From contig NZ_JACUUE010000005.1 of NCBI RefSeq assembly GCF_014859475.1, forward strand, positions 1-38,358: a stretch of DNA of 38,358 nucleotides, in the 5' to 3' direction. The DNA is from Rhodoferax sp. (GTDB taxonomy: Bacteria > Pseudomonadota > Gammaproteobacteria > Burkholderiales > Burkholderiaceae_C). Of this stretch, positions 32,005-38,166 are shown in pieces. The number at the start of each line of letters is the position of its first letter. The first letter of the stretch is position 1. The notes below the pieces were generated by a model. That model saw only the letters and a list, made by a program, of their open reading frames with translations. It searched no databases and was not told the DNA's origin. Both the position numbers and the translations under genes were made by a program.

Positions 32005-33110
32005 GCGCGCTGCGCCAACGCGTGGTGGTGGGCTTGAGCGGCGGTGTGGACTCCGCCGTGACCGCCTGGCTGCTCAAGCAGCAGGGCCATGAGGTGATCG
32101 GCATCTTCATGAAAAACTGGGAAGGCGACGATGACGATGACTACTGCTCATCGCGCCAGGATTTTCTGGATGCTGCTGCCGTTGCTGATGTGATCGGCAT
32201 CGAGATCGAGCACGTCAATTTTGCCGCCGAGTACAAGGACCGCGTGTTTGCCGAGTTCCTGCGCGAATACAGCGCCGGGCGCACGCCCAACCCCGACATT
32301 TTGTGCAACGCCGAAATCAAGTTCAAGGCGTTCCTGGACCACGCCATGCGCCTGGGCGCCGACAAGATTGCCACCGGCCATTACGCCCGCGTGCGCTTCA
32401 ATGCCGCCACCAAAAAGCATGAGCTGCTCAAGGGCCTGGACCCGGCCAAGGACCAAAGCTATTTTTTGCACCGGCTCAACCAGAAGCAACTGGCCAACAC
32501 GCTGTTTCCGGTGGGTGAGTTGCTCAAAACCGAGGTGCGCCGCATCGCGCTGGAGATCGGCCTGCCCAATGCCAAAAAGAAGGACTCGACCGGCATCTGT
32601 TTCATTGGCGAGCGGCCGTTCCGAGAATTTTTGAATCGCTTCATTGCCAAGGAGCCCGGCCCGATCAAGAACGACAAGGGTCACACCATTGGCGAGCATG
32701 TCGGCTTGAGCTTTTACACCCTGGGCCAGCGCCAGGGACTGGGCATTGGCGGCCTGAAAGCCAAAGGCGCGCCACGCGGCGGCGGCGACCACGCACCCTG
32801 GTTTGTGGCACGCAAAGACATGGGCCACAACACGCTGTGGGTAGTGCAGGGCCACGAGCACCCATGGCTGTTGTCGCACGAACTCACAGCGCAAGATGCC
32901 AGCTGGGTCGCGGGCCAGGCGCCGGATGCCACGGCGCTGGCCGCCAAGACTCGCTACCGCCAGCTTGATGCGCCCTGCCACCTGCGCGTGAACGGCGCAG
33001 ACGCTTTCAGCCTGAAGTTTGCAGAGCCGCAATGGGCCGTCACGCCGGGTCAGTCGGCCGTGCTGTACGACGGCGAGGTCTGCCTGGGAGGCGGCATCAT
33101 CGCGGGTTAA
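32001..33110 (+). CDS. mnmA: tRNA-specific 2-thiouridylase MnmA
   Basis: MnmA thiolates U34 of tRNA-Lys, -Glu and -Gln, taking sulfur relayed from IscS. The 369-residue protein has the ATP PP-loop [10 protein letters not shown] at the N-terminus, the first catalytic Cys in [30 protein letters not shown], and the second catalytic Cys in [15 protein letters not shown]. Length and order are typical. It is convergent with the CsoR-type gene, with four bases between the stop codons. Confidence 0.97.
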
Positions 33111-33114
33111 CCGG

Positions 33115-33405
33115 TTAGCCCATGCGCGCCATCAGGGTTTCCATGTCCTTGAGCATGGCTGCCAGCGACTCCTTTTGTGACACGTCGGGGCGCAGGTGCT
33201 CATCCATCTCCTGTTCCATGAAGCAAATGGTCATGCGCATGTAGGTGCTGTCGAGCGCTTTGCGCACCGCAGAGAATTGCTGCGCGATCTTCAGGCAGCT
33301 CTCACCCTCTTCGATCATGCGCTGCACACCCCGGATTTGTCCCTCCGCCCGACGCAGTCGGTTCAGAACATCGGTGCGCCCCGCTCCGTTGGTCAATGCA
33401 GTCAT
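33115..33405 (-). CDS. CsoR/RcnR-family repressor with altered ligand set
   Basis: This 96-residue all-helical protein is a CsoR/RcnR/FrmR/CstR (DUF156) regulator, a tetrameric repressor that binds G-tract operators. The DNA-binding face LNRLRRAEGQIRGVQRMIEEG is intact. The first sensor cysteine is Cys37 (GESCLKIAQQ). The positions expected for His and Cys in a Cys-X24-His-X3-Cys copper site hold Phe62 and Glu66; instead Cys61 lies beside the His position. A two-cysteine set suggests thiol or persulfide sensing, as in CstR, rather than copper; this is inference. It is the last gene of the RND operon, 18 bases after the DUF2892 gene, and probably represses it. Confidence 0.88.
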   Translation of the reverse strand: MTALTNGAGRTDVLNRLRRAEGQIRGVQRMIEEGESCLKIAQQFSAVRKALDSTYMRMTICFMEQEMDEHLRPDVSQKESLAAMLKDMETLMARMG

Positions 33406-33423: not shown

Positions 33424-33645
33424 TCAATGGCAGCCAATTTGCTGTTCCGGCACACCCAGTTTTTTCAGGATGATGCCCAGCGGGCAAAAATTGGTGAAAC
33501 CAGATTGAAACAAATTGGCACCCACAAAAGCCGTGAAGGCCAACGCCCACTTGCTGACAAACAGCGGGCTGCCCTCCACCCCCAGCGCCAGTGAAATCAT
33601 GATGAACAGGCCGGCGAAAACCAAAATATAACGTTGTACGGTCAT
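33424..33645 (-). CDS. DUF2892 (YgaP-type) small membrane protein
   Basis: This 73-residue protein has two membrane helices and the family signature NLFQSGFTNFCPLGIILKKLGV, with the conserved FCP cysteine. The domain is best known as the membrane part of the rhodanese YgaP, and it often lies beside sulfur-trafficking and CstR-type genes. It ends with a second cysteine near the C-terminus (GCH). It has a strong GAGGAG ribosome site and lies 30 bases after the RND permease. The specific role is unknown. Confidence 0.88.
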   Translation of the reverse strand: MTVQRYILVFAGLFIMISLALGVEGSPLFVSKWALAFTAFVGANLFQSGFTNFCPLGIILKKLGVPEQQIGCH

Positions 33646-33675
33646 GGTAAAAACTCCTCAGGGACAGTTAAAAAA

Positions 33676-36600
33676 TCAGCTTGCATGCACATTGGCGGGT
33701 GCCGTCGGTGGCGCAGCAGGCACCTGGTAGTTACGGCGCCAGTACAGCGCGTAATACAACACCGGAATCACCACCAGCGTGAGCAGGGTGGACACCAGAA
33801 TGCCAAAAATCAGCGAAATGGCGAGGCCGTTGAAAATCGGATCGTCCAGAATAAAGAAGGCGCCAATCATGGCCGCCAGTCCGGTCAGGGCAATCGGTTG
33901 GGCGCGCACGGCGGCTGACTGCACCACCGCGTCCTTGAACGCTACGCCTTGCGCCACCTGCAGCTCGATGAAGTCCACCAACAAAATGGAGTTGCGCACA
34001 ATGATGCCCGCCAGCGCAATCATGCCGATCATCGACGTCGCAGTGAACTGCGCATTCAGCAAGGCATGCCCGGGCATGACGCCAATGATGGTTAGCGGAA
34101 TCGGTGCCATGATCACCAGCGGGGTCAGGTAGCTTCTGAACTGCGCCACCACCAGCAGGTAAATCAGGATCAGGCCGACACCATAGGCGGCGCCCATGTC
34201 ACGGAAAGTGTCATAGGTGATCTGCCACTCGCCGTCCCACTTGACCGCGTACTGGCGATACGGGTCGCTGGGTTGGCTGATCCAGTACTCGCCCAATTCG
34301 CCGGTACCGGGCAAAGCTGCCACCTGCAGTTTGTCGCGAATGGCAAACAGGCCATAAAGAGGTGAGTCGAGCTTGCCGGCCATGTCACCAAAAACGTAGC
34401 TGACACCCTGCAGGTCTTTGGTGAAAAAGGGCTTGTCGATCACGCCCTGCTCCACTTGCACCAGCTCTGACAGCGGCACCATCTGGCCATTGGCAGCACG
34501 CAAAGGCATGGCCAGAATGGCATCGAGCCCGACCTGGTCTGCCAGCGGCAATTGCAGGCGCACCGGCACCGGGTATTTGGTATGGCCATCATGCAGGTAA
34601 GCGGCATCGACCCCGCCGAGCGCCATGGCCGCCGTTTGCGCCACCATCGCCACCGAAATGCCCAGCGACTCGGCGCGCTGGCGGCGCACCCGCAGGTAAG
34701 CGCGCGGCGCGTCGTCTTTGAGCGAGGTATCCACCCCCACAATGTCGGGCGTGGCCATAAAGGCCTGCGCCACCCGGCGCGCCAGCGCCTGGCGCCCGGC
34801 CTCATCCGGGCCATAAACCTCGGCCACCAAGGGCGACATCACCGGTGGCCCAGGTGGCACTTCGACCACCTTGACCAGGGCATGGTGGCGCGCGCCAATT
34901 TGCTCCAGCGCCGGACGCAGCCGCTGGGCAATGGCATGGCTCTTGTCATCGCGAAACTGCTTGTCCACCAGATTCACCTGCACGTCGCCCTGCTCGGCAT
35001 CGGCGCGCAGGTAATACTGGCGTACCAGGCCGTTGAAGGTGATCGGTGAGGCGGTGCCGGCATAGGCTTGCAGGTTCAGCACCTCGGGTTGCTGCGCCAG
35101 ATAGGCCCCCAACTCATGCAGCGCGGCGGCGGTGTTCTCCAGCGGTGTACCGGTCGGCATTTCGACCACCACCTGGAACTCGCTCTTGTTGTCAAAGGGC
35201 AGCATCTTGAGCACCACCCATTGCACCAGGGTCAGCCCCACCGACAGCAGCAATGCCACCAAGATGCCCGCGAGCAGCAGCCAGCGCTTTTTGGCACTGG
35301 TCAGGAACGGGGTCAGCACCCAGGCAAAAAGGCGCTGCAGTTTAGGGCCGAGACCAGTCTCTGCGGCCGCAGCGCCATGACCCGGCGCGTGCTGACGCAT
35401 CACTTTGAGCGCCAGCCAGGGCGTGACCGTGAAGGCAATGACCAGCGAGATGGCCATGCCCAGGCTGGCGTTGATCGGGATCGGGCTCATGTAAGGGCCC
35501 ATCAGACCGCTGACAAAGGCCATCGGCAGCAAGGCGGCAATCACCGTCAGCGTGGCCAGAATGGTGGGGCCCCCCACTTCATCCACCGCGGCCGGAATGA
35601 TCTCGCGCAGACTGCGCTCCGGGTACAGGTTTTGATGACGGTGGATGTTTTCCACCACCACAATCGCGTCATCCACCAGAATGCCAATGGAAAAAATAAG
35701 TGCAAACAAAGACACCCGGTTCAGCGTGAAGCCCCAGGCCCAGGAGGCAAACAAGGTCGCCATCAGCGTCAGGATGACGGCGGCACCCACAATCACGGCC
35801 TCACGCCGGCCCAGCGCAAAGCCCACCAGCAAAATCACCGAGCCGGTGGCAAAGGCCAATTTCTGGATCAGCTTGTTGGCTTTTTCTGCCGCCGTCTCGC
35901 CATAGTCCCGGGTGATGGTGGTTTGCATGTTGTGGGGGATCACGGTGTTGCCCAGCTCCTGCACCCGCGCACGCACGGCGCGTGCCACATCGACCGCGTT
36001 GGTGCCCGGTTTTTTGGTCACCGTCAGGGTCAGGGCCGGATAGACCCCGCCAGCCGCCACGGCCTGATCCGCCCCCGGCGTGAACCACACATAGCGCTGC
36101 GGCAACTGCGCACCCGTCTCGATGCGCGCCACTTCGCGCAAAAACACCGGTTTGCCCTGGCTGATGCCGACCACCAAATCGCCCACATCCTGCTCCGAGC
36201 GCAAAAACTCACCCGTTTCCACGCTCAGCATCTGGCCACCGGGCACCTGCGGGTCAAGCACCGCGCCAGACGGCATGCTGGTATTGGCTGCGGCCAGCAA
36301 GGCCTTGAGCGACAACACATCAACACCGCGCTCGCGCAGGCGCACCGGATTGAGCCAGACATGCACCGCGCGCTGCGGTCCGCCAATGGTTTTTACCTCG
36401 CGCGTTCCAGGCACCCGCTTCAATTCGACCTCAACCGTGCTCGCGACACGCTCCAGGTCAACCGCGGGCAGCGCGTCCTTGCTCCACAAGGTCACCGCGA
36501 TCACCGGCACATCGTCAATGCCCTTGGGCTTGACAACGGGCGTGAGCGTGCCCAATTCGCTTGGCAACCAGTCCTGATTGGCATTGAGCACGTCATACAG

Positions 36601-36948
36601 CCGCACCAGCGCCTCAGTGCGCGGCACCCCCACCTTGAACTGAACGGTCAAAACCGCCATGCCGGGCCGCGCCACCGAGTAGGTGTGCTCAATGCCGGCA
36701 ATCTGACTCAGTACCTGTTCAGCCGGACGCGCCACCATGTTGTGCACATCAACGCTGCTGGCACCGGGGAACGGGATCAGCACATCGGCCATGGTGACGT
36801 TGATCTGCGGCTCTTCTTCGCGCGGCGTCACCAGCACGGCAAACAGGCCCAGCAAAAGCGCTACCAGCGCCAGCAAAGGGGTGATGGCGTTGAGCTTGAA
36901 CGCGCGCGCCATGCGCCCGGAAATGCCCATTTGGTTTTCGTTCAACAT
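33676..36948 (-). CDS. RND-family efflux transporter permease
   Basis: This 1090-residue inner-membrane pump has the twelve-helix, two-repeat RND layout with two large periplasmic loops. The first helix is followed by VTPREEEPQINVTMADVLIPFPGAS and a VARPAEQVLSQI stretch. The proton-relay motif ILVDDAIVVVENIHRH lies in helix 4 and resembles drug-type (HAE) pumps, not the VDGA/E form of many metal pumps. Helix 10-12 motifs (ATSMIGMIALAGIIVRNSILLVDFIE) are intact. ATG 36948 is chosen; the track's start reads back into the adaptor gene. It lies 7 bases after the adaptor stop. Substrate is unknown; no outer-membrane channel gene is in the window. Confidence 0.94.
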   Translation of the reverse strand: MLNENQMGISGRMARAFKLNAITPLLALVALLLGLFAVLVTPREEEPQINVTMADVLIPFPGASSVDVHNMVARPAEQVLSQIAGIEHTYSVARPGMAVLTVQFKVGVPRTEALVRLYDVLNANQDWLPSELGTLTPVVKPKGIDDVPVIAVTLWSKDALPAVDLERVASTVEVELKRVPGTREVKTIGGPQRAVHVWLNPVRLRERGVDVLSLKALLAAANTSMPSGAVLDPQVPGGQMLSVETGEFLRSEQDVGDLVVGISQGKPVFLREVARIETGAQLPQRYVWFTPGADQAVAAGGVYPALTLTVTKKPGTNAVDVARAVRARVQELGNTVIPHNMQTTITRDYGETAAEKANKLIQKLAFATGSVILLVGFALGRREAVIVGAAVILTLMATLFASWAWGFTLNRVSLFALIFSIGILVDDAIVVVENIHRHQNLYPERSLREIIPAAVDEVGGPTILATLTVIAALLPMAFVSGLMGPYMSPIPINASLGMAISLVIAFTVTPWLALKVMRQHAPGHGAAAAETGLGPKLQRLFAWVLTPFLTSAKKRWLLLAGILVALLLSVGLTLVQWVVLKMLPFDNKSEFQVVVEMPTGTPLENTAAALHELGAYLAQQPEVLNLQAYAGTASPITFNGLVRQYYLRADAEQGDVQVNLVDKQFRDDKSHAIAQRLRPALEQIGARHHALVKVVEVPPGPPVMSPLVAEVYGPDEAGRQALARRVAQAFMATPDIVGVDTSLKDDAPRAYLRVRRQRAESLGISVAMVAQTAAMALGGVDAAYLHDGHTKYPVPVRLQLPLADQVGLDAILAMPLRAANGQMVPLSELVQVEQGVIDKPFFTKDLQGVSYVFGDMAGKLDSPLYGLFAIRDKLQVAALPGTGELGEYWISQPSDPYRQYAVKWDGEWQITYDTFRDMGAAYGVGLILIYLLVVAQFRSYLTPLVIMAPIPLTIIGVMPGHALLNAQFTATSMIGMIALAGIIVRNSILLVDFIELQVAQGVAFKDAVVQSAAVRAQPIALTGLAAMIGAFFILDDPIFNGLAISLIFGILVSTLLTLVVIPVLYYALYWRRNYQVPAAPPTAPANVHAS

Positions 36949-36955
36949 GCTGATC

Positions 36956-38053
36956 TCACTTGCCCGGGTTGACAACGGCCGTGGCCCCCGCCAGCCCGGC
37001 GCGCACCGGCTCCAGCGCCACTTGGTCGGCATCAGTCAAACCGGCCAACACCTCAACGCCCTGCACGCCGTGCTCGGCGCCAAGTCGAATCGCCTTGAGC
37101 GCAAAGCCCTGGCCAGACACCACATAAACCGCCGTCAACTCACCCCGGCGCAACACAGCGGAGGCAGGAATGAGCAAGCGCTGCGACTGGCCTGCGGCAA
37201 AGCGCACCCGCACCTGCTGGCCCGGCAACAAGCCCCGGCTTGCGCTGGCAGGCAATTCAAGGCGCCACTCAATGGTTTGCGACACCGCGTCTGCCGTGGG
37301 CAGGTGGCTGGTCTGGCTGGGTCGGACCCATTGGGGCGAGCCATCGGCCGCGCGCACCTGCACCTCCACGGCGCTGCTGCCCTGCACCAGGCTTGAGCGC
37401 GACACCGGCACCTGCACCACCGCCCGCAGCGGCAAGGGCGCATACAAGGTCAACAAAGGTTTGCCGGGAAAAGCCAGGTCGCCGGCCTCGGCCAGTGTTT
37501 GCAACACAAAGGCATCGAAAGGTGCCGTCACGCGCGTGAAGCCCTGCGACAAGCCGGACTGCTTTTCGCCTGCACTGGCCTGGTCGCGGCCCGCTTGCGC
37601 AGACTTGAGCTGGGCATCGGCCGTGTCCATGGCGGCCTGGCTGACAAACCCCTGCGCCAGCAGCTCGCGCGTGCGATCAAAATTGGCTTGGGCGTTGCGC
37701 AACTCGGCCTGCGCCTGCGCTGCCTGGGCCCGGCTAAGCTGCACCCCGGTTTGCGTTTCGCGGTCGTCAATGGTGGCCAGCAACTGCCCGGCCCGTACCA
37801 CATCGCCCGCCTTGACCACCAGCGTGACCAACCGCCCTGAAGCCTGGGCCGACACCGTGCTTTGCTTGACTGGCTGCACCACGCCATCCATTTCAAAGCC
37901 GCTGCCCACAGCCTTGAGCTGCACGGCCGCCACGTTCACTGTGGCAGGCGTTTGCGCCGCTACCGACAGCGCTGCCAGCGACATGAGCGCAAGCAACGAC
38001 CGGCCCACCCGACCGCACCGAACCACGGAACGCAATAAAGATGACTTGTGCAT
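36956..38053 (-). CDS. RND efflux periplasmic adaptor (membrane-fusion protein)
   Basis: This 365-residue adaptor has a signal peptide (about residues 1-34, ending SVAAQ) and then a lipoyl half GVVQPVKQSTVSAQASGRLVTLVVKAGDVVRAGQLLATID. An alpha-helical hairpin (about 105-160) follows, then the second lipoyl half VTAPFDAFVLQTLAEAGDLAFPG, a beta-barrel and a C-terminal membrane-proximal domain. It joins the inner pump to an outer-membrane channel of unknown location. It is the first gene of the four-gene operon, and its promoter carries the operator-like repeats. Confidence 0.94.
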   Translation of the reverse strand: MHKSSLLRSVVRCGRVGRSLLALMSLAALSVAAQTPATVNVAAVQLKAVGSGFEMDGVVQPVKQSTVSAQASGRLVTLVVKAGDVVRAGQLLATIDDRETQTGVQLSRAQAAQAQAELRNAQANFDRTRELLAQGFVSQAAMDTADAQLKSAQAGRDQASAGEKQSGLSQGFTRVTAPFDAFVLQTLAEAGDLAFPGKPLLTLYAPLPLRAVVQVPVSRSSLVQGSSAVEVQVRAADGSPQWVRPSQTSHLPTADAVSQTIEWRLELPASASRGLLPGQQVRVRFAAGQSQRLLIPASAVLRRGELTAVYVVSGQGFALKAIRLGAEHGVQGVEVLAGLTDADQVALEPVRAGLAGATAVVNPGK

Positions 38054-38067
38054 AAGGCTTCCTGAAA

Positions 38068-38083
38068 AATACTCTGGCTAGTA
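38068..38083 (-). promoter_or_regulatory. Operator-like repeat 2 (TACTAGCCAGAGTATT)
   Basis: This is the second of two tandem 16-mers upstream of the RND adaptor gene; it matches the first at 11 of 16 positions (TACT-G---G-GTATT). It overlaps the proposed -10 box. It lacks the G-run of the first copy and may be a weaker site. Confidence 0.5.
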
Positions 38084-38085
38084 TA
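38080..38085 (-). promoter_or_regulatory. -10-like TATACT of the RND operon promoter
   Basis: TATACT on the minus strand lies about 25 bases before the adaptor ATG at 38053. No clear -35 is found at 17 bases; the G-rich operator-like sequence fills the spacer region. Confidence 0.45.
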
Positions 38086-38089
38086 TTTG

Positions 38090-38105
38090 AATACCCCCAC
38101 CAGTA
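38090..38105 (-). promoter_or_regulatory. Operator-like repeat 1 (TACTGGTGGGGGTATT), CsoR-type G-tract
   Basis: The minus-strand 16-mer has a G-tract flanked by TACT and GTATT, the general look of RcnR/CsoR/CstR operators. It lies between the proposed -10 and the -35 position, and its start is 22 bases from that of repeat 2, about two helical turns. The only known candidate regulator in the window is the CsoR-type gene at the end of the same operon. Confidence 0.6.
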
Positions 38106-38128
38106 CATGAGAAAACGCAATAGACCAT

Positions 38129-38166
38129 AAAAAACCCCGGAAAATCATCGACTTTCCGGGGTTTTT
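38129..38166. terminator. Strong bidirectional intrinsic terminator
   Basis: AAAAACCCCGGAAA and TTTCCGGGGTTTTT form a perfect 14-bp stem with a 9-base loop, with A/T runs as part of both arms, so it can act on either strand. It separates the RND operon promoter from whatever lies to the right. Confidence 0.85.

Follow-up and report, generated by a model that had tools for sequence, protein, structure and literature searches.

The locus and its relatives

The gene considered here encodes a small repressor of the CsoR fold and is the last of a minus-strand operon in Rhodoferax sp. The DNA analysed, hereafter the window, is a stretch of 38,358 nucleotides. The coordinates given for the repressor in a first-pass annotation are exact; the strand, unstated there, is minus (33405-33115). 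The genes of the operon, in order, and the two cysteine codons are as follows.

36956..38053, minus strand: RND periplasmic adaptor (membrane fusion protein), with which the operon starts
33676..36948, minus strand: RND permease, HAE/AcrB-like and not CusA/CzcA-like; start Met inferred from relatives, the open reading frame opening at 37032
33424..33645, minus strand: 73-residue membrane protein with a YgaP-like TM domain (PF11127, formerly DUF2892), its gene 18 nt ahead of that of the repressor
33115..33405, minus strand: CsoR-fold repressor of 96 residues, with Cys37 and Cys61 and without His62 or Cys66, assigned by a PF02583 match and the predicted fold
33295..33297, minus strand: codon of Cys37, at the N-terminus of helix 2
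33223..33225, minus strand: codon of Cys61, the clade-defining second cysteine

The gaps within the operon are short. The permease scores far higher as an HAE-type than as a CusA/CzcA-type pump; a copper-resistance setting for the operon was rejected in view of this pump type and of the missing metal ligands described below. The repressor gene and mnmA, which encodes a tRNA 2-thiouridylase, have their 3' ends facing each other, 4 nt apart (window 33110-33115), and this tail-to-tail order is retained in most orthologous loci.

Of 56 orthologous loci, 53 have a YgaP-like TM gene adjoining the repressor gene and 37 carry a gene of the sulfide:quinone reductase (SQR) type, for which the closest solved SQR is 3sz0 (E=2e-175). 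The operon is also present in Rhodoferax antarcticus (locus L015). Other orthologous loci have a gene for OsmC or for a second Pyr_redox_2 flavoprotein, and SLAC1/TDT genes are also found in related operons. SQR is absent from the window operon, and a search of the rest of the genome gave no close SQR; the best match is weak (31%) and covers part of another FAD oxidoreductase. Because no sulfur enzyme is encoded in the window operon, the sulfur role proposed below rests on relatives. Just 30 nt (window 33646-33675) lie between the permease and the YgaP-like gene, and it is this place that the SQR gene fills in the loci that have it (L002, L012 and L034 were compared, amongst others).

Fold and residue register of the repressor

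The protein matches the PF02583 profile (DUF156, the CsoR/RcnR superfamily) with 76 bits, against a curated cut-off of 22.8, and no second PF02583 protein was found in this genome. Its AlphaFold2 model (pLDDT 91) has helices at residues 7-32, 37-71 and 75-95, the three-helix CsoR fold. The top 20 Foldseek matches of the model in the PDB are all CsoR, CstR, FrmR or InrS structures, with probabilities of 0.99-1.00; the E-values (0.01-0.16) are modest, as is expected for a short all-helical protein. The fold assignment of the first-pass annotation is thereby borne out.

The CsoR copper ligand set, Cys-X24-His-X3-Cys, is incomplete in the repressor: Cys37 is kept, Phe62 stands in place of the His and Glu66 in place of the distal Cys, as had been noted from the sequence, together with the second cysteine at 61. 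In a phmmer alignment with Streptococcus pneumoniae CstR (residues 13-83, without gaps), Cys37 falls on the first Cys of CstR, Glu66 on its distal Cys and Cys61 on a Glu. A quick MAFFT run had introduced a one-turn (4-residue) insertion in helix 2; it was ruled out by an L-INS-i alignment of the repressor with eight solved CsoR, CstR, FrmR and InrS sequences, which has no gap in that helix, and by the predicted structure, in which residues 37-71 form a single unbroken helix. The original register therefore holds, and the family alignment revealed no conserved His or Cys ligand in register that had been overlooked. These results support the view that the repressor is not a metal-type CsoR.

A C-X23-C branch of the CsoR family

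All 57 close orthologs (from the 56 orthologous loci, largely of Rhodoferax, and from the window itself) have both Cys37 and Cys61, without exception, so that the arrangement is not a matter of chance. Genome searches also turned up remoter relatives, which belong to further families, orders and classes within the phylum. A tree was calculated from 105 sequences over 84 columns, column 61 being left out. All 41 sequences with Cys61, together with seven others, form one clade of 48 members (support 95/82), which separates from the CsoR, RcnR/DmeR-like, FrmR and CstR references. Within the clade Cys61 occurs in 41 members, His62 in none and Cys66 in none, whereas amongst the 57 sequences outside it the counts are 0, 49 and 51, respectively. 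The residue at 61 in these outside sequences is, with few exceptions, a polar one (Asp, Lys, Glu, Arg or Asn). The states of residue 61 require four changes on the tree, which fits one gain and three losses. The FrmR pair is separate from the clade at 100/99, its His60 corresponding to Phe62 of the repressor. S. pneumoniae CstR also lies outside, but on a poorly placed long branch of 2.1 changes per column; deep placements in this tree are uncertain because there are just 84 columns and several long branches, this one included.

The repressor has all the marks of the clade, namely Cys37 and Cys61, no His62, no Cys66 and an operator-like ATACY-N6-RGTAT site. The sequence comparison supports placing it in a proteobacterial branch that is set apart within the CsoR family and marked by C-X23-C; the distinct subgroup that had been suspected from the unusual spacing is thus recovered. 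Cysteine is common as a third such residue at position 70 in Rhodoferax orthologs (His70 in the window) and is missing from distant clade members. A subgroup around L152-L155 is without Cys61 (L099, L101, L104, L108 and L128), and L108 is also without Cys37.

Could the protein nonetheless be a metal sensor in which Cys37 works with non-standard ligands, be they Cys61', Glu66', His70 or the N-terminus? The CsoR fold, the retained Cys37 and the His70 of the window are in keeping with this; Glu66 is the residue that FrmR has there, and an E64H variant of that protein is reported to sense metal (PMC5016687). However, His62 and Cys66 are missing from the entire clade, residue 70 varies amongst orthologs (Cys, His or others), the pump is far better described as HAE than as CusA/CzcA type, and the neighbours are sulfur genes. 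We consider metal sensing very improbable.

Operator-like palindromes

Two palindromes lie in tandem upstream of the operon.

38069..38084, minus strand: operator-like palindrome ATACTAGCCAGAGTAT, the nearer of the two to the adaptor ATG, overlapping an inferred TATACT –10-like hexamer at 38080-38085
38091..38106, minus strand: operator-like palindrome GTACTGGTGGGGGTAT, the distal one, its centre 22 bp from that of ATACTAGCCAGAGTAT

These 16-bp sites (ATACY-N6-RGTAT) lie 15 bp upstream of the ATG of the adaptor, the first operon gene. The looser pattern RTACY-N6-RGTAY occurs in the 38-kb window at these 2 sites only, against 0.01 expected, and the tandem palindrome, at 0 mismatches, is present in a single copy in the genome. 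Over 85 loci there are 39 palindromes against 0.6 expected, many of them directly before the repressor gene or its operon. Across 61 genomes of the genus, tandem sites were found in 19, namely in 18 of the 43 that have the repressor and in 1 of the 18 that lack it. Seventeen of the 18 fetched tandem sites from outside the window precede the same adaptor gene, the exception being in a genome that lacks the repressor; the match in that genome (G720, L201) was rejected as a chance GTAC repeat. The single site was also counted in 11 other genomes, where it is scarce (1-8 copies each); 9 of them have one copy or more inside the repressor locus or the operon promoter. Two loci, L142 and L144, have a divergent order, in which the repressor and the YgaP-RND genes share one intergenic region with palindromes. 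Upstream of the palindromes in the window (38129-38166) there is a perfect hairpin bordered by runs of A and T, probably a bidirectional terminator, which is not in the terminator-scan list.

Sulfur genes in the company of the repressor

Across the clade the palindrome precedes csoR-like, persulfide dioxygenase, OsmC, sulfate-permease (SulP) and sulfur-transport (Sulf_transp, YeeE/YedE type) genes. Copies near or away from the repressor locus precede SulP and MBL genes in one genome (G564), and an MBL gene of the persulfide dioxygenase type and an OsmC gene in another (G321). An MBL enzyme encoded downstream of a palindrome is closest to 9g8t, 4ysk and 4efz; of these, 4ysk is a Pseudomonas putida persulfide dioxygenase. 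The palindrome is also found before a peroxiredoxin gene with SLAC1 and before an operon of BLH-phosphatase, YgaP and RND genes; in L160 a 1-Cys peroxiredoxin gene has an operator-like palindrome nearby, and L161 has a BLH-phosphatase gene with one. In L139 the gene directly after the repressor encodes an ETHE1-rhodanese (persulfide dioxygenase-rhodanese) fusion related to BpPRF.

Sulfur-type genes lie in the fetched flanks of 14 of 29 loci of clade-type genes as against 1 of 23 comparison CsoR loci (Fisher p=5e-4), a value that is indicative only, since flank lengths and taxa differ between the two sets. One subclade (L145, L146, L148 and L151) has no sulfur neighbours. The CstR-like trait of having sulfide or persulfide enzymes next to the regulator gene is thus seen in orthologs and clade members, not in the window operon. 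Taken as a prediction from sequence, the regulation of sulfur genes by the repressor is well supported, and the same evidence indicates that it would control genes for sulfide and persulfide detoxification, including an efflux pump, and not metal-resistance genes.

A thiol switch for other electrophiles or oxidants, such as disinfectants, quinones or peroxides, would make the sulfur genes secondary and have the RND pump export a toxic compound. It has in its favour that an HAE-type RND pump with its adaptor is the sole transporter of the window operon, that SQR is missing from the window genome, and that relatives have OsmC genes and, in L160, the 1-Cys peroxiredoxin gene near an operator-like site. 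OsmC proteins act on organic peroxides. We nevertheless think such a switch improbable, as genes for SQR, persulfide dioxygenase, sulfate permease and Sulf_transp recur beside the repressor or the palindrome across families.

A proposed reactive-sulfur switch

The explanation that we favour, with a probability of roughly 0.78, is an autoregulating reactive-sulfur repressor of the CsoR fold, CstR-like in its working, that would be derepressed by persulfides or polysulfides, with Cys61 as a partner or second acceptor. In unstressed cells the repressor, probably a tetramer, would bind the two palindromes over the promoter and silence its own gene along with those for the RND pump and the YgaP-like membrane protein. 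Were reactive sulfur to accumulate, Cys37 would become sulfurated, Cys61 serving as its partner or taking up sulfur separately; the repressor would then leave the DNA and the operon would be expressed. The same switch would also activate SQR in most relatives; elsewhere in the clade its further targets would be persulfide dioxygenase, OsmC, SulP, SLAC1/TDT or YeeE/YedE genes. It is from the gene company and the operator-like sites that we infer the inducer to be reactive sulfur.

The first-pass annotation had called the protein a thiol-switch sensor. That reading can be extended, to a probable sensor of reactive sulfur, by the conserved operators and the SQR and persulfide dioxygenase neighbours; the part that fares less well is a dithiol switch cross-linked between Cys37 and Cys61. 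The C-X23-C spacing leaves Cys61 off the face on which the CsoR and CstR ligands lie. A parametric model of an antiparallel helix pair was built, constrained by the distances expected for a 62/66 metal site and leaving out helix 1, kinks and motion. The Cb37-Cb61' distance in this crude model is 11.6 A (5-95%: 9.7-13.2), which speaks against a simple disulfide, the model being too rough to settle the question. With a separation of ~10-13 A, a direct Cys37-Cys61' disulfide would require rearrangement; the rough model argues against one in the ground state, not against sensing.

A variant compatible with the favoured explanation is that Cys37 alone senses reactive sulfur, Cys61 having a structural or separate role without a cross-link. 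The modelled distance would suit this, as would the probable exposure of position 61, given that it is polar in nearly all non-clade sequences; furthermore, of the seven clade members without Cys61 some retain an operator-like palindrome (L152 and L154, before the repressor gene). On the other hand, Cys61 is invariant in the close orthologs, and the helix model disregards helix 1 and helix kinks. CstR forms di-, tri- and tetrasulfide links between Cys31 and Cys60 of its protomers (PMC9774590), which shows that bridges of some length can form and that local movement can occur. We would put this variant at a little under even odds.

A more speculative proposal, which we think rather unlikely as a whole, is that the clade is an undescribed proteobacterial CsoR branch that detects reactive sulfur with a pair of thiols lying away from the metal/CstR face, by a different allosteric route, and controls RND export of sulfur species or of a product, in effect a reactive-sulfur efflux route.

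Comparison with known systems

The closest likeness is to CstR (Staphylococcus aureus, Enterococcus faecalis, S. pneumoniae; YrkD of Bacillus licheniformis), which shares the CsoR fold, the place of the first Cys, the lack of the metal-site His and the link to SQR, persulfide dioxygenase and rhodanese genes (PMC9774590, PMC9918477). In E. faecalis CstR both cysteines are persulfidated in cells (PMC9405070). However, the distal Cys of CstR (Cys60 in S. aureus, C-X28-C) occupies the distal-ligand position of CsoR, where the repressor has Glu66, its own second Cys being five residues earlier, at 61; moreover, the present clade is proteobacterial, is found with RND and YgaP-like genes and branches apart from the poorly placed S. 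pneumoniae protein. The repressor may thus be CstR-like in working but is not a CstR, as its second thiol is elsewhere.

BigR and SqrR, of the ArsR family, are likewise dithiol repressors of proteobacterial sulfide-detoxification operons, but have an unrelated winged-helix fold and an intra-chain Cys pair. In the bigR operon a DUF442-ETHE1 enzyme is encoded together with a sulfite exporter (PMC5823870), and the BLH-phosphatase gene with its operator-like site in L161 is a further point of likeness. The metal sensors CsoR, InrS and RcnR/DmeR-like proteins have the fold, the helix-2 Cys and a palindromic operator with G/C runs in common with the repressor, but their metal-site His and distal ligand are missing throughout its clade. 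FrmR has the equivalent of Cys37 and an acidic residue at 66 (Glu64; PMC5016687), but it keeps His60 and splits off in the tree; no formaldehyde-detoxification gene was seen near the repressor. TTHA1953 of Thermus thermophilus is also a cysteine-modulated CsoR-family regulator of sulfur-oxidation genes but, by its description, controls distant sox operons and not its own gene cluster (PMC10318464).

In the literature found, the persulfide-sensing repressors named from Proteobacteria are of the ArsR type (BigR, SqrR), FisR being an activator, and most descriptions of CsoR-type persulfide sensors come from Firmicutes. No account was found there of a CsoR protein paired with DUF2892, nor of this system with RND, SQR or OsmC, and the clade may already figure in a published CsoR-family sequence network. 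If the favoured explanation is correct, Proteobacteria have CsoR-type sulfur regulators of their own, and many genes labelled just 'metal-sensitive repressor' are misnamed. An RND pump would be tied to sulfide stress, the defined operator-like site would make regulons predictable from sequence, and the clade would offer a natural test of how far a sensing thiol can shift within one fold.

Other ligand arrangements were encountered in CsoR-like proteins. Those of three Roseiflexaceae loci (L063, L064 and L065) have Cys at the His62 position and Ser at 66. One from Acidimicrobiales (L069) has Cys37 with Ala at 61, 62 and 66, and its gene lies near persulfide-dioxygenase-like and SulP genes.
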